DNA of 34,906 nucleotides from Syntrophorhabdaceae bacterium. Its GTDB lineage: Bacteria > Desulfobacterota > Deferrimicrobia > Deferrimicrobiales > Deferrimicrobiaceae. Positions 3,451 through 13,931 of this stretch are shown here, piece after piece. Both the position numbers and the translations under genes were made by a program. Where the stretch lies: positions 1-34,906 of the forward strand of contig WRHP01000016.1 in the NCBI GenBank assembly GCA_009783195.1, in the 5' to 3' direction. The notes under the pieces are model-generated. The model searched no databases, was not told where the DNA came from, and saw only the letters and a list, made by a program, of their open reading frames with translations. Every line of letters starts with the position of its first letter. The first letter of the stretch is position 1.

Positions 3451-4662
3451 TCAGTAGAGCAGATGCCGGGAACGTCTTTTCCCAAACGCGCGTTCTTCAC
3501 GCGTCCAGGCCGCGCGCATTGTCCGCCATCTGCCGCCGCGCCCGATAACTTCGCGCTCCCGGCTGGAACCGCAAAGCAGGTCGAACGCGAGAGTGCCGCT
3601 GACAAATTCGTAGGGTTCGGTTCGCCAGCGAAACCGCGCGGGTGATTGGGAGCGCGCCGCCGCTATACAGGCAATTCCTGTTCGAAATGGAAGGAACGCC
3701 TCCGGGTCGCGGACATGTATCTCGACGCCGTGGCAGCGGGTCTTGGCGTGCTTGTCCCATGTAGGGACAAATTGGATTGGCCTGAAAATCACGCCCGGCA
3801 GCTTTTCCTGCTGCAATATTTCCGTCAACCGGTCGGAGTTTAACCACGGCGCTCCAAACAGCTCGAATGGCCGTGTCGTGCCGCGTCCTTCGCTCAAGTT
3901 TGTGCCTTCAAGGAGGCACATCCCCGGATAGACAAGCGCTGTTTCAGGCGTGGGCATGTTCGGCGACGGAAAAACCCACGGGAGTCCGGTGTCCCGCCAT
4001 GACATTTCACGCTTCCATCTGTCGCAAGGGATTACCGTAAGCTCAAGATCAAGTTCCAGCTCTTCTTTGTATAGGAGCGCCAGTTCGCCGACGGTCATGC
4101 CGTGCCGTGCCGCGATGTCGTGCGCTCCGCAGAAGGATTCATAACCGGGCTGAAGCGCCGGTCCTTCGACCGCGATGCCGTTGATCGGATTGGGCCGGTC
4201 AAGGACGAAAAAGGCCAGGTTGGCTTTGGCCGCGGCTTCCATGCAAAAGAGCATGGTTGCCTGATATGTATAGTATCTGGCGCCGATGTCCTGGATGTCG
4301 AAAACAAGGGCGTCGAGCCCCCGGAGCATCTTCTCCGTTGGCCTCAAAGAAGTCTGGCTGTTTCCATACAGGGAATGCACTTTCACGCCGGTCTTTGGGT
4401 CACGCTCGTTTCTAACCGCTTTCATGTACTGTGCGTCGCCACGTATACCGTGCTCCGGCCCAAAAAGCGCTGACAGGCGTACCCCTGGCGTTCCTGCGAA
4501 CAGATCCGCCGCGTGCCTCAGTTTTTGGTCAACGGCGGTCGGGTTGCAGATAAGTCCCAAGGACAGTTTCTTTACGGGAGCGAACCGGCGGGCCGCCAGA
4601 ACATCCAGGCCGGACAGGACCGGTTTTTTTCCGCGTTTTCTGTAAAGAGAGGTGGTTTTCAT
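3451..4662 (-). CDS. namZ: Exo-beta-N-acetylmuramidase NamZ-like (DUF1343)
   Basis: The product belongs to the DUF1343/NamZ family, which removes terminal N-acetylmuramic acid from peptidoglycan fragments. Family landmarks are present: LGLICNPTAV near the start, the LFGPEHGIRGD block with the proposed catalytic Glu, VFDIQDIGARYYTY, FFVLDRPNPI, WVFPSPNMPT and EGTNLSEGRGTTRPFE. The C-terminus (FDLLCGSS...RSRHLLY) aligns end to end with the family pattern, so the gene is intact at about 403 residues. I chose the ATG at 4662 because similarity begins soon after it. An in-frame ATG at 4761 would add 33 unconserved residues from the spacer, and its GGAG directly abuts the ATG. No signal peptide is visible with either start, unlike many secreted NamZ proteins, so it probably acts on imported muropeptides in the cytoplasm. 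Confidence 0.85.
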   Translation of the reverse strand: MKTTSLYRKRGKKPVLSGLDVLAARRFAPVKKLSLGLICNPTAVDQKLRHAADLFAGTPGVRLSALFGPEHGIRGDAQYMKAVRNERDPKTGVKVHSLYGNSQTSLRPTEKMLRGLDALVFDIQDIGARYYTYQATMLFCMEAAAKANLAFFVLDRPNPINGIAVEGPALQPGYESFCGAHDIAARHGMTVGELALLYKEELELDLELTVIPCDRWKREMSWRDTGLPWVFPSPNMPTPETALVYPGMCLLEGTNLSEGRGTTRPFELFGAPWLNSDRLTEILQQEKLPGVIFRPIQFVPTWDKHAKTRCHGVEIHVRDPEAFLPFRTGIACIAAARSQSPARFRWRTEPYEFVSGTLAFDLLCGSSREREVIGRGGRWRTMRAAWTREERAFGKRRSRHLLY

Positions 4663-4762
4663 TTTCCGGCAAGATACCACATCCGGCGGCAAGAGATGAT
4701 AGATGGGCGGCTTCTTTCGCTCGAAACACTTACTGTCGGGCTCGCTATCGCTTCGCGCCATC

Positions 4763-5140: not shown

Positions 5141-6871
5141 TTATCTGGCGATAGCCTTCTTGCCCATCGCGTCCCCTATTATCTTGATTCCTTTCTTTGA
5201 CTCGGTGATGGATTGCGTAATCGCCTCGCGAGCCTGCTGCGGGTTATGGAAGCCGTCGGAGTTCTCCGCTGTCCACCACTCCCACAGGATGTGCGCTTTG
5301 TCGTGCTGCGTCTGCGCCGCCTTTATCACGTTATCGGCCACCCCGGCGTTGCGGGCCTGAGCGATTTCGTCAATCAGCATGGCGAGCCAGAACTCGGCTT
5401 TCCGCAATCTTGCCTTGAAGTAGTTGCGAACCGATTCGATCTGGTAAACCGCCTGATCCGGCGTCATATCCGGGTGACACTCGGATGTGATGCAGGTGCC
5501 CTTTATAGCGGTTTGAGGGCTGGCCGACCAGTGCGATGTGTAAACTTTGCCTTTGGCGTTTTTCACCTTGGGGTTGTGGCAGGCGGTGCAGCCGATCCCA
5601 AGCTTGTGGTGCTTGGAACCCCAGTAAGTTTCCAACTCAGGATGTTGCAGTTTTAACAGAAGGGCGCCGGAAAGCGTGTGTCTGAAGTCACGGAAGCCCA
5701 GTTCATTGTAGTGGTCGTATATCTCATTTACGCCTTTGAGCGGATAGTGGTTTGTCCGTGGATCGCTGGCTTTGATGGACGGCTCTCCGGTTTTGATGTC
5801 GAATCCTGGGTTGCAGTTGTACTCAACGTGGCACTGTCCGCACTGCAACACGCTGTCGTAGCGGTCCAGGATGGCGATTTTGCGGTATCCGTTGCGGAAA
5901 TCCACTACCCTGAACTGCGTGGCGTTAGGGTCTTTGTGCCAGAGCGTGTCTTTCTCCGGACGTGTCAGCGCCTGGATCATGGCGTCGCGGACGATCCGGG
6001 GTTTTGCGGCGTGCGGGTCGTGGCAGGTGAAGCAGTTTAACGCGTTGTTCAGATCTTTTACGAACTCGAGAACGTTAGATGTGCGGTCCCACTTTGCCTG
6101 CGGATCTTTTTCTCCCAGGTATTTCCATGTAAGGATCTGGTCCTGCGTCTTGCACTGCATGCAGGTGGGATTGGCCGCCGCCGCCGTTTCCGTCATGATC
6201 GCCTTGTGTTCCTTGATGTCCGGGAAGGCGTCTTTCATGACGTCCCATGCGCCCAAGGGGCCGGGCATTGACACGTATTCCCAGCCGTTCTTTGGCTGGA
6301 AGCGGCCTCCGAACGAGCGGTCGGCCAGGAACTGGTCAATCAGGCTGAAGGCGTGGCTTCGCGTGCCGGAATGCTCCTTGGTGAAACCGTGCCCCATCAT
6401 GAGCTTGTCCCAAAGCGGATTGGGGGAGCGCTCTGTCGGGAGCGATTTGTCGGTCCGGACTCGCCTGTGAAGGTTGGAGTTGTTCATGCTCATGAACTGG
6501 TCGGAGTGGCAGCGGCCGCATGTCTCTTGCCCCATGCGTGTGACAGGTTTTACCTGGCTGTCTTTGAGGTGGTCCGCCGCTTTGTCGTGGCAGCTTACGC
6601 AGTTGTTATTTGCGTGTTTCCCGCCTTCCTTGAGTTCCTTGATCTCTCCGTGGCATTCGTAGCAGTTGTTCTGGTTAACCGGCTTGTCCGTAAGCCGGCC
6701 TTTGACCGCTGCGGGCGGTAACACGTAATTGCCGAATGCCTCTTTCTCGGAAATGATCCCGGCGCTTTTTGTTTGGGCAGCGGCTTTGCCGGGAGAGGCT
6801 TGGACCCATGCGGCGGAAAAAACAAGCGCTGCGACAGACAACACTACAGCAAACATTCGTAGGCGATTCAT
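5141..6871 (-). CDS. Octaheme nitrite reductase (ONR, TvNiR-type)
   Basis: A 576-residue periplasmic c-type cytochrome that probably reduces nitrite to ammonium with six electrons. A signal peptide (residues 1-25, ending VQA) is followed by eight haem sites: C70YECH, C91VSCH, C118GRCH, C237MQCK, C280FTCH, C344GQCH, C428TACH and C460-x4-C465H. The CxxCK site is the lysine-ligated catalytic haem of NrfA-like enzymes. Three extra N-terminal haems make this the octahaem form known from Thioalkalivibrio. QCHVEY carries the active-site Tyr351, and Cys353 two residues on matches the Tyr-x-Cys pair that is cross-linked in TvNiR. R171 in RSHAF corresponds to the NrfA RGHAY arginine. The last haem site is the unusual CX4CH. 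No nrfH-like partner is adjacent. The start has GGAG 9 nt upstream, and a terminator closes the gene, so it is a single-gene unit. Confidence 0.92.
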   Translation of the reverse strand: MNRLRMFAVVLSVAALVFSAAWVQASPGKAAAQTKSAGIISEKEAFGNYVLPPAAVKGRLTDKPVNQNNCYECHGEIKELKEGGKHANNNCVSCHDKAADHLKDSQVKPVTRMGQETCGRCHSDQFMSMNNSNLHRRVRTDKSLPTERSPNPLWDKLMMGHGFTKEHSGTRSHAFSLIDQFLADRSFGGRFQPKNGWEYVSMPGPLGAWDVMKDAFPDIKEHKAIMTETAAAANPTCMQCKTQDQILTWKYLGEKDPQAKWDRTSNVLEFVKDLNNALNCFTCHDPHAAKPRIVRDAMIQALTRPEKDTLWHKDPNATQFRVVDFRNGYRKIAILDRYDSVLQCGQCHVEYNCNPGFDIKTGEPSIKASDPRTNHYPLKGVNEIYDHYNELGFRDFRHTLSGALLLKLQHPELETYWGSKHHKLGIGCTACHNPKVKNAKGKVYTSHWSASPQTAIKGTCITSECHPDMTPDQAVYQIESVRNYFKARLRKAEFWLAMLIDEIAQARNAGVADNVIKAAQTQHDKAHILWEWWTAENSDGFHNPQQAREAITQSITESKKGIKIIGDAMGKKAIAR

Positions 6872-6959: not shown

Positions 6960-7832
6960 TCAACGGGAAGATGCTTCTTTGATCCGGTCGAGCTCCGAAA
7001 GCGCCTCTTTAGCTTCCGCCGGCATGTTTCCACCGCGGCTTACCTGCGCCGCTCTTTCGTAAAAAGCCATGGCTTCGGCGGTTTCCCCCTTGGCAAACGC
7101 CGCCGCGCCCAAAGCCCGCAGGTCTGACGCTATTTTTGCGCTTTCCGCCAGTTCCTTGTCGATTTCCAGCGCCGCAAGGTAGCGCGCTTGCGCGCCTTGC
7201 GGATCGCCTCCCGCAAGGGTGATGTCTCCGATCAGCCGCAGGGAATTGGCTTCCTCGGCGCGTTCTCCGGATTTCTTGTTGGACTCCAGAGCTGCAATGG
7301 CCAACGGGAGCGCTTCGCCTGTTTTTCCTTCCAGAAAGAGAATACGGGACAGCAGGTTTTGCATGCGTCCCGAATACGGCTTCTTTTCGACCGGAATGGC
7401 TTTTCTCGCCCAGTCTTCCGCGTCCTGCAGGCTGCCAAGGGCCAGTTCCACCTTCGCTTTCTCAAACGCCGCTTCCGTGAAAAGCGGATTGTCTGGAGAT
7501 ACTATTCGCAGCGCCTCTTCAATCCGTTCTTTCGCAAGGGGAAGCTCTGTTTTTTGCCGGTGGACTCTTGCCAGATTGAGGAGCGAGACCGCGATGCCGT
7601 CGAAATCTTCTATGGACCGGTTTATCCGTAGCGATTCCTCAAACGCCATGATCGCGCCATCGTGGTTGCCGCGATTTTCGGCTTCCAGCCCGCGCTTGTT
7701 CCACGACAGGGCGTGCGCCCGCGCGGGCGGCACGGGGATTGGAGCGGGGTTCGAACATCCGCACACGGCGACGGCGGCAAAAAGGCAAAGGAGCAGCGCC
7801 GCGGCGCGGCAGCTTCGGTAGCCGCTATTCAT
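6960..7832 (-). CDS. TPR-repeat lipoprotein, last gene of the Mla operon
   Basis: A 290-residue predicted lipoprotein. A hydrophobic N-terminus ends in VCGC, a plausible lipobox with the acylated Cys at about residue 26, followed by a Pro-rich linker (NPAPIPVPPARA). The rest consists of helical hairpins of tetratricopeptide type, for example WNKRGLEAENRGNHDGAIMA, LNLARVHRQKTELPLAKERI and LRLIGDITLAGGDPQGAQAR. TPR proteins act as binding scaffolds. The reading frame overlaps the end of the MlaD gene by 8 bp, so it is translationally coupled to the Mla system and probably serves it at the outer or inner membrane. The partner is not known, and the substrate role is inference from context. Confidence 0.8.
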   Translation of the reverse strand: MNSGYRSCRAAALLLCLFAAVAVCGCSNPAPIPVPPARAHALSWNKRGLEAENRGNHDGAIMAFEESLRINRSIEDFDGIAVSLLNLARVHRQKTELPLAKERIEEALRIVSPDNPLFTEAAFEKAKVELALGSLQDAEDWARKAIPVEKKPYSGRMQNLLSRILFLEGKTGEALPLAIAALESNKKSGERAEEANSLRLIGDITLAGGDPQGAQARYLAALEIDKELAESAKIASDLRALGAAAFAKGETAEAMAFYERAAQVSRGGNMPAEAKEALSELDRIKEASSR

Positions 7833-8766
7833 GGCTGTCTCCCGGAACGATGCCCGGTTTGCCTTCCGCGGGTATGTAGTTGCGGAATGGCCACATCTTC
7901 TTTATTCCGCCCACGATGTCGTTTGTATTCGATACAAACTCTTCTGTTTCGATAAGGAGCGGATAGAACCTCGGCGCTGTTTGCTCGGCGGTTTTCCGCA
8001 GCAGCAGGGAGGTGTTTTCCATGTTGGACAACGCTTCTTCCGCCTTGTCGATCAGGATGGGGAGCCTTTGGCTTACGTTGTCTGCCACAAGCGACAAGGT
8101 ATTGGCCATAACGGAGAGATTGTCGATGAGGACCGCGGCTTTTTCGGCATCGTTGATTCCAGTCTGAAAGAGGCGGTCCGCGTGGCTGCGCGTTTTCTCG
8201 AAATCGGATGTCAGCCGCTCGATGTTTGCCATCGTCAGCTTTATATCGCCTTGCGGGTCGTTGACGTAGGAAATCGTCTTGTAAACTTCATTCAACAGGA
8301 TATCGACGGACTCGCGCATTCCAAGCGCGATTTCATTCAGAGCGTCCTGTTTATGGAAACGGATGAACTGGCCTTCTTCAAGAGGCGGCAGATTCGGCGA
8401 GCCTACGGAAATGTCGATGATGCTGGTTCCTATAAGCCCCTCCTGCATCATGGTGGCTGACGAGTCAACACGGACCCACTTCGAATATTTCCGATCGACC
8501 AGAATTTCGACGAGCACCTTTGCCCGGTCGTCGAGGGAAACCTTATGAATTCTCCCGATCAGAAAACCGGAGAGCTTGACAGGCATGCCTTTATTGAGGC
8601 CGGCTCCCGTATCGGACTCGAACTTGAGGAGGTATTTTTTATCGAACAGGTCGATGTCGGTTCCAAAATAAAAGACCACCGCGATGGCCGCGATTACGGC
8701 TCCGACGACAAAAGCTCCGATAAACGCCTCGATGTGCTTGAAGCGGGGGTCCTGTTCCATTTTCAT
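7825..8766 (-). CDS. mlaD: MlaD-family (MCE) substrate-binding protein
   Basis: A 313-residue MCE-domain protein of the Mla intermembrane phospholipid transport system. One N-terminal transmembrane helix (about residues 13-35) anchors it in the inner membrane. The MCE domain follows (about 40-120), with YLLKFESDTGAGLNKGMPVKLSGFLIGRI and GLIGTSIIDISVG as landmarks. After residue 160 comes a long helical, coiled-coil-like region (about 160-290), longer than the C-terminal tail of E. coli MlaD, which probably forms part of a tunnel or needle. It overlaps the upstream MlaF-like gene by 4 bp and the downstream lipoprotein gene by 8 bp, so the four genes are tightly coupled. Confidence 0.9.
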   Translation of the reverse strand: MKMEQDPRFKHIEAFIGAFVVGAVIAAIAVVFYFGTDIDLFDKKYLLKFESDTGAGLNKGMPVKLSGFLIGRIHKVSLDDRAKVLVEILVDRKYSKWVRVDSSATMMQEGLIGTSIIDISVGSPNLPPLEEGQFIRFHKQDALNEIALGMRESVDILLNEVYKTISYVNDPQGDIKLTMANIERLTSDFEKTRSHADRLFQTGINDAEKAAVLIDNLSVMANTLSLVADNVSQRLPILIDKAEEALSNMENTSLLLRKTAEQTAPRFYPLLIETEEFVSNTNDIVGGIKKMWPFRNYIPAEGKPGIVPGDSHE

Positions 8767-9425
8767 GATAGCTTTCCCTCGGACAAGTTTAATACGGCTG
8801 CCGGCGTGTTGCCGAAAATTGCGCTTTGGTGTGGGGACAGGAATACGGTGGCCCTGTCTGGTTTTTCCCGGTGGAAATCAAGCGCCATGCTAAAAAGCTC
8901 TTTTCGCTCGGCCTCGGGGAGACCCTCTCCCAGGCGGTCGTAAATAACCACTTCCGGGTTGACTGCGATTACACGCGCAAGGCCGACCGCCGCGCACTGG
9001 GCTTCGGAAAGCCGCCCTGGAGGCAGGAAGGGGTCGCCATCGTACCCGGTCTGGTTCAGCGCCCGGAGCGCTTTTTCCCAGATAACATCGGTGCTTTCGG
9101 CGGAATGGTACAACAGCGGCAGGGCGACATTTTCGACCGCTTTCAGGTTCAGGATCAGCCCGCCTCCGTGGAGATAAACGCCGATTCGCGAGCGGAGTCT
9201 GTGCAGCTTTAACCCGGCAAGGCTTCCGGGGTTCTCTCCCAGCAGGACGATGTTTCCTCTGTCCAGAGCCCGCATTCCGAGTAAAGCTTCAAGCAGAAGA
9301 ACACAATTCCAGGCCGACCCGGTGATGATTTCCGTGACGGATCCTTTTTCAAAGTTGTGGTTTGCCATCTGGAGGACCGGCTCCAGGACCGCGTTGACAA
9401 GCCGCAACGGCGCCGTCTTGTTCAT
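8763..9425 (-). CDS. Degenerate MlaF-like ABC ATPase subunit (probable pseudo-ATPase)
   Basis: By position (between mlaE and mlaD) and by residual similarity this 220-residue protein is the MlaF ATPase of the Mla transporter, but nearly every catalytic motif is lost. The Walker A place reads ITGSAWNCVLLLEALLG (34-50): the GxGKT lysine and threonine are Val42 and Leu43. The Q-loop glutamine is His86. The signature LSGGQ is LSEAQ (139-143). In Walker B the Asp is kept (D163) but the catalytic Glu is Arg164 (VVIYDRLGEGLP). Only the switch histidine (H199) remains. The overall ABC fold length, coupling region (LILNLKAVENVALPLLY) and frame are intact, so it is not a broken gene. It overlaps both neighbours by 4 bp. 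It may be a structural clamp for MlaE, with energy from another ATPase or none at all. Confidence 0.82.
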   Translation of the reverse strand: MNKTAPLRLVNAVLEPVLQMANHNFEKGSVTEIITGSAWNCVLLLEALLGMRALDRGNIVLLGENPGSLAGLKLHRLRSRIGVYLHGGGLILNLKAVENVALPLLYHSAESTDVIWEKALRALNQTGYDGDPFLPPGRLSEAQCAAVGLARVIAVNPEVVIYDRLGEGLPEAERKELFSMALDFHREKPDRATVFLSPHQSAIFGNTPAAVLNLSEGKLS

Positions 9426-10198
9426 CGGAAAGTTACCAGCGCCGCGACCGCGTCGATGACGAAAACCAGCAGGAGGCTTCGCATGACTCCCTTGGTTGCC
9501 GCGACCGGGATCTGCGTAGCGCCTCCTTCAACCGAGAGTCCCTGGTAACAGCAGACCGCCGCGATGGCTATGCCGAACACGAAACCCTTCAGGAGAGAAA
9601 CAAAAATTTCTCTCAGCGTGGAAAACTGGACAAGACCTTGCTGGAATTCCGCAAATGGAATATTCCAGATTATGGAGCCGACGAAGAACCCGCCGTTGAT
9701 CGCCACGAGTTCGGCGTAGAGTGTGAGCATAGCCACAGATGCCGCCATTCCCACGACGCGGGGCATGACGAGGTAGCGGGTCGTGGGGATCCCCATCGCT
9801 TCGAGCGCCCAAAGCTCATCGTTGATCTTCATCGACGCGAGTTCGGCGGCTACGGCGGCGCCGCTGCGAGCGATCACAATCACGGCTGTGAGAACCGGCC
9901 CGACCTCGCGGACGACGACCCAGACAAGAACCATCCCTATAAGCGGGGCGCCTTCCGCTCCGGCGAAGAAGATGATCTGCGTGATGATGAGGGTGCCGAT
10001 CAGAAAAAAGAGGGCCACTATTACAGCCCACGCATGGACGCCGGTGAACAGGATCTGTTTCATGAGAACGCGCGCCACCGGGCGAAAGTCGCTCCGCAAA
10101 AAACCCCTCAACTCAAGAAATGACCGGAAGACGATAAGGGCGACTTCCCCCATGAAGATAAAGGGGGCGGTTGTTTTTCGTCCGATCGCCGTTAGCAT
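9422..10198 (-). CDS. mlaE: MlaE-family lipid transporter permease
   Basis: A 258-residue polytopic inner-membrane protein of the MlaE/YrbE permease family, the first gene of the Mla operon. It has an N-terminal amphipathic region, then about five transmembrane helices. The family signature GPVLTAVIVIARSGAAVAAELASMK lies at about 110-134, followed by NDELWALEAMGIPTTRYLVMPRV, the segment that contacts the ATPase. Length and motifs are normal, so the membrane part looks functional even though its ATPase partner is degenerate. AGAGGA lies 8 nt before the ATG. It starts about 170 bp after the cyclase gene, with no strong terminator visible between them, so read-through from the upstream operon is possible. 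Confidence 0.92.
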   Translation of the reverse strand: MLTAIGRKTTAPFIFMGEVALIVFRSFLELRGFLRSDFRPVARVLMKQILFTGVHAWAVIVALFFLIGTLIITQIIFFAGAEGAPLIGMVLVWVVVREVGPVLTAVIVIARSGAAVAAELASMKINDELWALEAMGIPTTRYLVMPRVVGMAASVAMLTLYAELVAINGGFFVGSIIWNIPFAEFQQGLVQFSTLREIFVSLLKGFVFGIAIAAVCCYQGLSVEGGATQIPVAATKGVMRSLLLVFVIDAVAALVTFR

Positions 10199-10369: not shown

Positions 10370-12517
10370 CTATTTGTCCGTCATGACCCAAACGCCGTCC
10401 CATTGTTGTGGGGGATGCTCGATCATTGCCCTGCATTTGCGCGCGTATGACGCCGCGGCGGGATCGGTTCCTTCGGTCGAGAGGAAAATATCCAGCGCCG
10501 TCTGAAAATCTCCCGTGTTGAAAGCCCGCAAGCCGTCGGCAAAAGAGGAAAACTCCTGTTTGCGGGTTTCAAAGTCTTGATGGGAAAGCAGCTCGAAAAC
10601 GCGTACCGGCTCTTTTCTCCCAACGACGGCAACGCGCGAGATATTACGCGCCAGGAAGCGGTCTGGAAGCGCCTCCCGCAGGCTTTCGGAAGCAAGGATG
10701 TATGTTCCAAACTGCTTGTTGATCCCTTCGATGCGCGAGGCCAGGTTGACGGCGTCTCCGAGGATGGTGTAGTCGAATCTGCTGCTTGACCCCATGTTGC
10801 CGACGACAGCCGCTCCGGTATTTAGGCCAATTCGCATGAAAAGATCTTTTCCTGTCCGCTCCCGGATGCCCGGACGAATCGAAGCGAGTTTTTCCTGGCA
10901 GCGCAGCGCCGACCGCGCGGCCCGCTCCGCGTGGTCTGGCTGGTCTATTGGCGCGTTCCAGAAGGCGATGATGGCGTCGCCTATGTACTTGTCCACGGTT
11001 CCGCCTTCCTCCTGGATGATGTCTGTCATCGCAGACAGATATTCGTTGAGCAAAGCCGTCAGCTCCTCCGGGTCAAGCCCTTCCGAGATGCCTGTGAACC
11101 CCTGGATGTCGGAGAAAAAGATCGACACAATGCGCTTCTCGCCGCCTAGCTTGAGCCGTTCGGGGTGTTCGATAAGCTGGTCGATGACGGCGGGGCTCAA
11201 ATATTGCCGGAACGCGCCCTTGATAAACCTCTTCTGTCTGCCTTCCGTGGCGTAGTTCACCGTGAACGCTCCCAGAAGCGAAAAAGAGACAGCCGCCTCC
11301 TGTACGACCAGCGGCAGCCAGCATCCCGAAAAACAGGCCGACAGGCAGATGATCGAGGGCAGCGGGAGAAAGACGGCGCACAGGAGCAGGCTTTGCCAGG
11401 CTTTCCGGGAGAAGAGGACCGCAAAAGACGAGAAAAGCGTAAGCAAAAACGCCGTGGCAAACGTGGCTATCGGGCCCGCGGCAAAAACAAAATCTCCCTC
11501 CATAAGGTTGTCAAGCGTGGTGGCGTGGATCTCGGCTCCGGGGAAGACGCCGCCAACGGGGGTTGGCCGCAGATCGAAGAGCCCCGGCGCGGAAAAGCCG
11601 AAGATGACATGGCATTCCCGGAACGCGTCCGGGTCTTGAATGACAGGCGGCTCTCCGGCCTGCTCCCTGAGTTCGGACTGGATCACCGCGGCGGCGCTGT
11701 AGTGTCTATATGTTGTTCCGGACGCTCCGCGAAAACGGAGAATGGCGTTGCCGTGCGCGTCGATCGGGATTTTCTTGCCGTCTACGAAAATCGCTCCCTC
11801 CCGGATCTCCATGCGCAGCCCGGAGGAAGAAACCATAAGGGGCGCAAGCGCGAAGGAGGGGATTGTCTTGCCGTCAAAAATGCGGAAGAGCCTCGCGCGC
11901 CGATAGATGCCGTCGGTGTCCGGGTCGTGCTGGACATCTGTCAGCGCAAAGGAGGGGGCGGCGATTTCGGGTATGGGGAAAAGTCCGCGCGAAGCGGCGA
12001 CGCCGCGCTTCTTTCCGGCGGACAGCCATTGCTCAAGCCCCTGGATAGCAAGTCCGGGTGCCGGATAGCCGTCGGGCCAGGAAGCCGCGCTGCCCGATGT
12101 TTCGCCAAAGTGCGTCGCGGCGATGAAGTTTCCCGCGTTTCCGATGGCTTCGCCAAGCGCCGCATCGTCTTCGGGTCCATAAAAGGAAGGTTCTGTATAA
12201 AGGACATCAAAGGCGATGCTTTGCGCTCCGGCGCGTTGCAGGTAGGAGATGATTGCGCTGTAAACCTCACGAGGCCAGGGCCAGGGCAACCCGTTTTCTT
12301 CTTGAGCCCAGTCGAGGCTTTGCTGGTCGAGCATGATGAGGCGAATCCGGTCAGTGGAAGGGGAAGGCCGGGCCGCAATGTTTATCCGCCAGTCCCATGT
12401 GCGCAGTTCCCACCGTTCGAAGGCGCCGGTTGCCCGCAAAAGAAACGCGAGGGCGACGGAGACGATGGCCACCGCCGCCCCCGATACGGCTTTTTTTTGC
12501 GCGGGCGTCAAGTTCAT
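10370..12517 (-). CDS. CHASE2-domain adenylate cyclase (class III)
   Basis: A 715-residue membrane-bound class III nucleotide cyclase. It has one transmembrane helix (about 12-28), an extracytoplasmic CHASE2 sensor (about 35-340), three transmembrane helices (about 345-420) and a catalytic domain (about 460-650). Metal-binding Asp470 (FFSDIQGF) and Asp514 (YIGDAI), and transition-state Asn591 and Arg595 (NLASR), are present. Lys510 with Thr584 (DYTILGD) is the Lys/Thr pair seen in cyanobacterial CyaC-type adenylate cyclases, so cAMP is the likely product. A short TPR-like tail follows (about 660-700). The gene starts 8 bp after the M48 peptidase gene and closes the SH3-M48-cyclase operon. CHASE2 ligands are generally unknown. 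Confidence 0.9.
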   Translation of the reverse strand: MNLTPAQKKAVSGAAVAIVSVALAFLLRATGAFERWELRTWDWRINIAARPSPSTDRIRLIMLDQQSLDWAQEENGLPWPWPREVYSAIISYLQRAGAQSIAFDVLYTEPSFYGPEDDAALGEAIGNAGNFIAATHFGETSGSAASWPDGYPAPGLAIQGLEQWLSAGKKRGVAASRGLFPIPEIAAPSFALTDVQHDPDTDGIYRRARLFRIFDGKTIPSFALAPLMVSSSGLRMEIREGAIFVDGKKIPIDAHGNAILRFRGASGTTYRHYSAAAVIQSELREQAGEPPVIQDPDAFRECHVIFGFSAPGLFDLRPTPVGGVFPGAEIHATTLDNLMEGDFVFAAGPIATFATAFLLTLFSSFAVLFSRKAWQSLLLCAVFLPLPSIICLSACFSGCWLPLVVQEAAVSFSLLGAFTVNYATEGRQKRFIKGAFRQYLSPAVIDQLIEHPERLKLGGEKRIVSIFFSDIQGFTGISEGLDPEELTALLNEYLSAMTDIIQEEGGTVDKYIGDAIIAFWNAPIDQPDHAERAARSALRCQEKLASIRPGIRERTGKDLFMRIGLNTGAAVVGNMGSSSRFDYTILGDAVNLASRIEGINKQFGTYILASESLREALPDRFLARNISRVAVVGRKEPVRVFELLSHQDFETRKQEFSSFADGLRAFNTGDFQTALDIFLSTEGTDPAAASYARKCRAMIEHPPQQWDGVWVMTDK

Positions 12518-12525
12518 GATCGTTA

Positions 12526-13437
12526 TCAGATGTTTTTCAACGCTTTCTCGAATCTGGCGCGCCGGGCGGGCGATTCCGTAAGCTGTCCACGGGCGGAAGG
12601 CGGCAGGTCCGAGATCCGGCTGGCGGGGGAAGGATGTGTTTTCACAAAATCCGCTCCGCCGGGTTTGAGCTTCTTTTCCATTTCACGCAGCATCGCGGCC
12701 AACGATGACGGATCGTAGCCGACCCTGGAGAGCATTTTTATGGCGGCGGCATCGGCCTCGCGCTCGAACCCGCGCGAGTACCCGTTGTTGACCATGGTGG
12801 AGGTAATATCGCCGATTGAACTTTCGAATGTGCTGGTCAGGCTGGCAAGCTCCTGTTTGCCGAACGCCTTTGTTCCCTCGACCGCCAAGATTTTAAGCGC
12901 TTCCAACTTGCGGTTTTTCTCGATCGCCTGGATGCCGTGATTGAGTTCCACATGGCCGATTTCATGTGCCAGTACCGCCGCGATTTCGTCTTCGTTTTTG
13001 CACAGGCGCAGTATTTCCCGCGTGACGAAGATCAATCCGCCCGGCGCCGCGAAGGCGTTGATCTCGTTTGAGTCGAGTATCATGAAGTGGTATCCGCCGA
13101 ACGTTTCCGGCCGGTCGGATGCCTGCGCCAGCGCAAGACCTATCAGGTTAATGTAATTTTCGGCCTGGGAGTCGCCGTATGGCTTGTATTTGGCGAGCAG
13201 GGTGGCTCCGACGGACCGGCCGATGTAATATTCCTGCTCCGGCGTGAAGTCTTCGGCCGCTTTTGAAATTGCCGTGGCGCTGCGGTTGATCGAGTCGGCC
13301 TGTTCTTTCGTCATGACTCCGGTTGACTGTCCCACCGTGGTGCCGACCCGCGCTACTTCCTCGACGACGCATCCCCACAAAACCGCGATGGATACCGCCG
13401 CAATCAGCCGCACGGTGTTATAGAGGCGTATTTTCAT
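12526..13437 (-). CDS. M48-family metallopeptidase, predicted lipoprotein
   Basis: A 303-residue zinc peptidase of the M48 family (BepA/LoiP/YcaL-like periplasmic type). The N-terminus ends in VLWGC, a plausible lipobox with Cys23. The zinc site is H158EIGH162, with the third ligand in the FEREAD motif (E225). NAFAAPGGLIFVT, a strong M48C landmark, lies at 128-139, and HPSPASRI near the end is also typical. These enzymes degrade or refold misassembled envelope proteins. The start ATG overlaps the stop of the SH3 gene by 4 bp, with GGGAG about 8 nt upstream. Association with an SH3 protein and a CHASE2 cyclase suggests envelope surveillance (inference). Confidence 0.92.
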   Translation of the reverse strand: MKIRLYNTVRLIAAVSIAVLWGCVVEEVARVGTTVGQSTGVMTKEQADSINRSATAISKAAEDFTPEQEYYIGRSVGATLLAKYKPYGDSQAENYINLIGLALAQASDRPETFGGYHFMILDSNEINAFAAPGGLIFVTREILRLCKNEDEIAAVLAHEIGHVELNHGIQAIEKNRKLEALKILAVEGTKAFGKQELASLTSTFESSIGDITSTMVNNGYSRGFEREADAAAIKMLSRVGYDPSSLAAMLREMEKKLKPGGADFVKTHPSPASRISDLPPSARGQLTESPARRARFEKALKNI

Positions 13438-13931
13438 CGGGCGTCTCCCGAACCGTCGGTCAGGCCGCCTTCTTTCAAAAACGCGGCGATCCGCTCCTGC
13501 GGAATATCGGTCGCCTGCATCCGGTCGATGGCCGAGAAGTCGAGGTCCCGGTTGCGCGCCTTGAACTCGGCTTCGACTTCCGCGTTGAAGCCTTTGCCGG
13601 CAAGCGCAAGTTCGCCGCCGGAAGCGGCTACCTGAGCATCTTTGGACCCGGCCTGAAGGGTGATTCGCTTATCGGTCAACGCGGAGGAGTGTATCCATCC
13701 GGAGGAGCTTTTTGTCGTCGGGCCGATCCGCATCCATGCGTCTTTGCGTTCAAGCACCTCGACGCGGTCCCCATATTCGAGTGTTGAGACGATTTTTCCG
13801 AGAAAGGCGGGAGTTGCCCGGACATCTCCTTTTTTTACCTGGACGCTCATCATTGTTCCGGCGGATACAATGCCGGAAAATGCCAGAAAGAAGGCGAGAA
13901 CAAGAAAAAGCGAAATGATGCGCGGTTTCAT
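13434..13931 (-). CDS. Secreted bacterial SH3-domain protein
   Basis: A 165-residue protein with a signal peptide (residues 1-24, ending VSA) and one bacterial SH3 domain (about 28-90: VQVKKGDVRATPAFLGKIV, YGDRVEVLERKDAWMRIGP, GWIHSSALTDK). The rest is a charged, mainly helical tail (FNAEVEAEFKARNRDLDFSAIDRMQ) often seen in proteins encoded beside M48 peptidases. SH3b domains bind peptidoglycan or peptides. AAGGAG lies 6 nt before the ATG. It is the first gene of a three-gene operon with the M48 peptidase and the cyclase, and it diverges from the phosphodiesterase-like gene at 14067. Confidence 0.85.
   Translation of the reverse strand: MKPRIISLFLVLAFFLAFSGIVSAGTMMSVQVKKGDVRATPAFLGKIVSTLEYGDRVEVLERKDAWMRIGPTTKSSSGWIHSSALTDKRITLQAGSKDAQVAASGGELALAGKGFNAEVEAEFKARNRDLDFSAIDRMQATDIPQERIAAFLKEGGLTDGSGDAR

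Follow-up and report, generated by a model that had tools for sequence, protein, structure and literature searches.

Three variants of Escherichia coli MlaF, K47A, E170Q, and ΔCTE, are each nonfunctional, and the C-terminal extension (CTE) of the protein holds MlaF dimers together in a handshake (PMC7367683). In the same organism, transfer of lipid from MlaD to MlaC is reported to be ATP independent and to be blocked by ATP hydrolysis (PMC10212509). The route by which phospholipids reach the outer membrane is disputed, as is a forward-running Mla; in E. coli, ATP hydrolysis keeps Mla retrograde. An MlaEFD-only system with an elongated MlaD is described for Veillonella parvula, for which an MlaD bridge has been proposed (PMC10665443). 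PqiABC and LetAB are MCE bridges that have no ATPase (PMC10897342, PMC12436622).

Here, we analyzed a 34,906-nucleotide stretch of DNA (the window) from a Syntrophorhabdaceae bacterium (assembly GCA_009783195.1, contig WRHP01000016.1). An earlier note had described in it an Mla lipid transporter whose only encoded ATPase has lost its catalytic motifs. We find that this protein, a pseudo-ATPase referred to below as pMlaF, belongs to one ancient clade of MlaF-like proteins that lost the nucleotide-binding and hydrolysis motifs but neither the ABC fold nor the segment following the Q-loop. An ABC transporter that is conserved with a dead nucleotide-binding domain (NBD) as the only one encoded in its operon is unusual in the ABC superfamily.

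Operon layout and motifs of the MlaF-like protein

The operon lies on the minus strand in the order mlaE, mlaF-like gene, mlaD, and TPR lipoprotein gene. The first gene (9422..10198) encodes a divergent permease of 258 amino acids (aa) that matches PF02405 well above threshold (E = 5.9e-55; 186.6 bits versus a cutoff of 22.5) but falls below the cutoff of the TIGR00056 subfamily (146.2 versus 212 bits); its coupling-helix region is intact. pMlaF (8763..9425; PF00005, 31.9 bits versus a cutoff of 25) follows as a complete 220-aa frame without interruption. The MlaD protein (7825..8766) carries an MCE domain at residues 44 to 121 (PF02470, E = 2.8e-13, 50.4 bits), preceded by one N-terminal membrane helix (judged from a hydrophobic stretch in the sequence) and followed by a C-terminal extension of ∼190 aa; in relatives, the MlaD companion of pMlaF is of the same ∼320-aa type, with an N-terminal D-x-RF-x-x-LE motif. 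The last gene (6960..7832) encodes a TPR protein (TPR_12, E = 4.8e-21) with a lipobox-like sequence (...VAVCGC-SN) that is likely anchored in the outer membrane, and its homologue is found downstream of mlaD in nearly all carrier loci. Overlaps of 4 bp between mlaE and the pMlaF gene (ATGA at 9422-9425), 4 bp between the pMlaF gene and mlaD (8763-8766), and 8 bp between mlaD and the TPR gene (7825-7832) run along the whole operon, bearing out the earlier claims that all of the genes overlap and that the protein in the MlaF position is of full length and unbroken frame.

The motif columns of the window pMlaF were set by aligning it to the intact MlaFs of related genomes (n = 24). In this alignment, the Walker A Gly, Lys, and Ser/Thr are replaced by Asn40, Cys41, and Val42, the A1 Gly position by Thr35, and the Q-loop Gln by His86. 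Residues 139 to 143 read LSEAQ where the intact proteins have the signature LSGGM; the Walker B Asp163 is retained, the catalytic Glu is replaced by Arg164, and the switch His is replaced by Pro198. The losses of the Q-loop Gln, signature, and catalytic Glu had all been read correctly in the earlier note. So had the loss of the Walker A Lys and Thr, although the positions given (Val42 and Leu43) were wrong and should be Cys41 and Val42. As for the two residues said to remain, Asp163 is indeed kept; however, His199 lies one column past the switch position, in a column occupied by Arg, Arg, and Asn in relatives from the same family. The C-terminal extension that forms the dimer handshake of MlaF is also missing, with a median of 23 residues past the switch position in pMlaFs versus 52 in canonical MlaFs, and the window protein fails the cutoff of the NCBIfam MlaF equivalog NF008809 (56.7 versus 441 bits). 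Judged by these motifs, the window pMlaF is predicted to be an ABC-fold protein without a usable ATPase site.

An AlphaFold2 model built from the family alignment (pLDDT 93.1; pTM 0.90) has an intact ABC fold. Foldseek matched this model to the MlaF structures 7d06, 7ch8, and 7ch7 (PDB) at TM scores of 0.85 to 0.89, its best solved matches including LolD and the MlaFs of Acinetobacter baumannii, Pseudomonas aeruginosa, and E. coli; the top sequence-profile match of pMlaF in the PDB was likewise MlaF. The best-conserved part of the family is the segment GGGLILNLKAVENVALPLLYH (residues 87 to 107; 9105..9167, minus strand). Its family consensus directly after the Q-loop, GGLISNLKVxENVxLPLxYH, has a conservation of 0.73, compared to 0.40 at the former Walker A, and N93, L94, E98, N99, and L102 are invariant. 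In ABC proteins, the stretch that follows the Q-loop runs toward the coupling-helix cleft, where the NBD docks on the permease, and GGGLILNLKAVENVALPLLYH is the putative MlaE-docking region of pMlaF.

The surroundings of the operon vary among carriers. In the window, a CHASE2-adenylate/guanylate cyclase (10370..12517, minus strand; PF05226 and PF00211) is encoded 171 bp upstream of mlaE. Cyclase homologues occur near the divergent mlaE in seven other genomes (G001, G003, G174, G605, G221, G121, and G576) and beside the TPR gene in another (G173), and such a cyclase could possibly regulate the Mla locus. Two same-genus loci have, directly before mlaE and thus where the window has the cyclase, a cyclic-nucleotide-binding domain that ends an apparent MscS-type channel, as read from the sequence (L010, 1-702; L011, 2944-3645). 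Secreted proteins, some of them outer-membrane-barrel-like, are encoded upstream of mlaE in other families (L097, 2195-3959; L001, 4013-4996), and no Pfam family was found for them. Beyond the cyclase gene, the window encodes a BepA-like M48 peptidase (12526-13437, minus strand) that adjoins an SH3-domain protein (13434-13931), a pair that adjoins the cyclase in G001 and G003 too. On the other side lie a multiheme protein (5141-6871, minus strand), with a cytochrome c552 domain and an N-terminal c3/c7-like region and far under the NrfA cutoffs, and a NamZ exo-β-N-acetylmuramidase (3451-4761, minus strand).

A degenerate clade maintained with its own MlaE

The family was searched in relatives, in 395 genomes of the phylum of the window, and in 277 genomes of one class. 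The distribution survey thus covers that phylum; one further scan of genome contigs used a single query sequence and gave three hits (L001 to L003), among them one pMlaF (L001) and one canonical MlaF (L002). The pMlaF comes from Desulfuromonadales bacterium GWC2_61_20, and its protein is identical to the pMlaF of a surveyed genome of the window's phylum (G528), so that this phylum includes the Desulfuromonadales (NCBI: Thermodesulfobacteriota). In total, 46 distinct pMlaFs were found in at least 10 bacterial families of the phylum. None of the seven hallmarks is kept in 16 of them, one in 17, two in 10, and three in 3. The Ser-Gly of the signature and the switch His are each retained in 0/46. 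Six have a Glu at the catalytic position, and in these Walker A is absent; 11 have the Walker A Lys, with most other hallmarks gone. Some largely keep the P-loop (e.g., GGGGSGKTT in L013), and part of the clade could possibly bind ATP without hydrolyzing it. In contrast, 24/24 canonical MlaF paralogues from this genome set retain all hallmarks. Close relatives with intact GKT and Glu, named in the earlier note as a finding that would speak for decay or a sequencing problem, were not found in the clade (46/46 degenerate). A selenocysteine reading of an in-frame TGA in some relatives was rejected: in the three loci displayed in frame, the TGA lies upstream of the start codon.

In a maximum-likelihood tree, 19 pMlaFs formed one clade (support 100/99) apart from 24 canonical MlaFs and LolD outgroups; branches are long, and the position of the clade is less certain than its separation. 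The MlaE partners of pMlaFs formed a clade of their own (support 100/100) that matches the pMlaF clade. No intermediates with an intact site were found among the matches, which fall into two sets, one pairing a canonical MlaF with a canonical MlaE and the other a pMlaF with a divergent MlaE. Among 277 genomes of one class, pMlaF and divergent MlaE occurred together in 43 of the 46 and 47 genomes that carry one or the other, where ∼8 were expected (these counts lack phylogenetic independence). There were seven exceptions: a divergent MlaE scores just under the cutoff in four, pMlaF is frameshifted in another (G582), and the remaining two (G604 and G614) are incomplete assemblies. The association also holds where the genes are unlinked: several genomes of one family (f27) carry the divergent mlaE away from the pMlaF-mlaD-TPR operon (in G174, at a distance of ∼260 kb) and yet retain both parts (L085/L086 and L088/L089).

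Pairwise dN/dS of pMlaF was 0.12 to 0.29 for close pairs outside the bacterial family of the window and 0.24 to 0.58 within it, where values were also raised for MlaE and MlaD (0.29 to 0.53 for MlaD, close to those of pMlaF) and where canonical MlaF gave 0.18 to 0.44; several dS values in these comparisons are near saturation. Because canonical MlaF had a dN/dS of 0.03 to 0.04 in one genus, pMlaF is less constrained than its canonical counterpart. Nevertheless, pMlaF is under purifying selection and is not decaying: its values lie below 1, not near 1 as decay would predict, and with 46 degenerate proteins in one clade they uphold the earlier argument for selection. A pseudogene or a sequencing error, to which one might ascribe the faster evolution of pMlaF than of its partners in several pairs (dN/dS 0.13 to 0.22 versus 0.03 to 0.14) or the copy in G582 that is split over two frames (L178, 2373-3052; an assembly frameshift or a real lesion), is extremely improbable against full-length open frames that lost the same motifs in at least 10 families within one clade. 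Purifying selection and the near-strict co-occurrence of pMlaF with its MlaE oppose a pseudogene as well, and we reject sequencing error and decay on the strength of the conserved degenerate family and its dN/dS.

All 18 of the other carriers tested (17 with a genome completeness of at least 90%) encode at least one further MlaE, of the canonical kind, and the ATPase beside it was an intact MlaF wherever read. Selection maintains pMlaF along with its own clade of MlaE and its MlaD and TPR-lipoprotein partners, usually beside a normal, ATP-driven MlaEF. The window genome, which is 88% complete, yielded no second MlaE or MlaF besides the divergent MlaE and pMlaF, and the other matches to pMlaF in it were LolD/MacB-type ABC proteins or weak. 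The search for a second MlaF suggested in the earlier note was thus negative, and its phrase "only encoded ATPase" holds for the window assembly but not for the 18 other carriers. MlaC and MlaA also had no match in the window genome (88% complete) and do have matches in same-genus genomes; the absence of both, and of canonical MlaE, may reflect either gene loss or gaps in the assembly. In most other carriers, too, MlaA and MlaC had no match. Since this leaves most carriers and the window genome without them, the lipid path cannot rely on MlaA or MlaC, and a bridge formed by MlaD becomes plausible, as proposed for Veillonella (PMC10665443).

Energy source and direction of transport

We think it probable, on balance, that the pMlaF locus encodes a second type of Mla system, an MCE-type lipid conduit that works independently of ATP and of which pMlaF is a conserved pseudo-ATPase subunit. 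pMlaF would dock on the coupling helices of MlaE and, in a structural or gating role, keep MlaE accessible to lipids. MlaD, with its MCE ring and C-terminal extension, and the TPR lipoprotein, presumably acting from the outer membrane, would extend the path over the periplasm, and lipids would flow down their gradient with no use of ATP. Given that hydrolysis blocks MlaD-to-MlaC transfer in E. coli (PMC10212509), removal of the ATPase could favor anterograde flow, from the inner to the outer membrane. Taken together with the nonfunctional K47A, E170Q, and ΔCTE variants (PMC7367683), this makes an ATP-independent, possibly anterograde conduit the simplest reading of the pMlaF system. More tentatively, and with somewhat less confidence than doubt, we propose that a whole Mla lineage dispensed with ATP and kept its NBD as a fossil scaffold or gate, in a passive conduit, probably carrying phospholipid from the inner to the outer membrane, that runs parallel to the ATP-driven Mla of the same cell.

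Other arrangements would explain a dead NBD differently. Energy could come from elsewhere, for example from the proton motive force via MlaE or another inner membrane protein, with pMlaF as a scaffold; the PqiA/LetA systems, which lack an ATPase, may use the proton motive force or an unknown ATPase or be passive (PMC10897342). The pMlaF operon, however, holds no conserved candidate for an energizing protein, and we regard this explanation as unlikely. The canonical MlaE of 18/18 other carriers tested, with an intact MlaF adjoining wherever read, raises the prospect of a mixed dimer of pMlaF and canonical MlaF, that is, an asymmetric ATP-driven transporter like the heterodimeric ABC exporters with one degenerate site. 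Each composite ABC site is formed by the Walker motifs of one NBD and the signature of the other. Because 46/46 pMlaFs have lost the signature and most have also lost Walker A, Walker B, or both, neither composite site of such a dimer would be intact. Moreover, the extension that holds MlaF dimers is absent from pMlaF, and the window genome (88% complete) is without canonical MlaF and MlaE. A mixed dimer is therefore quite unlikely, and the earlier proposal of a true ATPase partner encoded elsewhere is weakened. It is less probable still that pMlaF is a regulatory gate, not a passive scaffold, that senses a signal such as a cyclic nucleotide or another ligand in its degenerate pocket. The cyclase that neighbors the divergent mlaE not only in the window but also in several families of relatives, and the cyclic-nucleotide-binding protein preceding mlaE in two same-genus genomes, are consistent with such a gate; yet the cyclase is missing from many other carrier loci, and the pocket residues show no new conserved pattern of the kind that a new binding site would need (0.40 at the former Walker A). 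Of the two mechanisms that the earlier note had offered, we favor a conduit that is passive or otherwise powered, given that the signature is lost alongside Walker A and B.

If the ATP-independent conduit is real, nearly all carriers tested have both a normal Mla and one without an ATPase. The "passive anterograde" model could then be tested directly, and the natural system would reveal roles of an NBD other than burning ATP.

Comparison with described systems

A literature search, which most subscription journals lay outside, found no description of a pseudo-ATPase Mla or MlaF. pMlaF shares its fold and its gene position between mlaE and mlaD with the MlaF of the MlaFEDB systems of E. coli, A. 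baumannii, and P. aeruginosa; unlike that protein, the window pMlaF lacks the Walker A Lys/Ser, Q-loop Gln, signature, catalytic Glu, switch His, and C-terminal handshake extension. The MlaEFD system of V. parvula is similar in its MlaE-F-D set, in an MlaD longer than that of E. coli, and in the absence of MlaA and MlaC, which holds for most pMlaF carriers; however, the accessible part of that report mentions no loss of MlaF motifs (PMC10665443), whereas the systems described here have a dead MlaF and an added TPR lipoprotein. PqiABC and LetAB resemble the proposed conduit as ATPase-free MCE bridges, Pqi also having an outer membrane lipoprotein, but their membrane protein is PqiA or LetA, with no NBD-like subunit, where the pMlaF operon has MlaE (PF02405). 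NBDs with substituted catalytic residues are also found in TM287/288, BmrCD, and MsRv1273c/72c; in those transporters, one composite site is competent, whereas the only NBD encoded in the window operon is dead at every motif.
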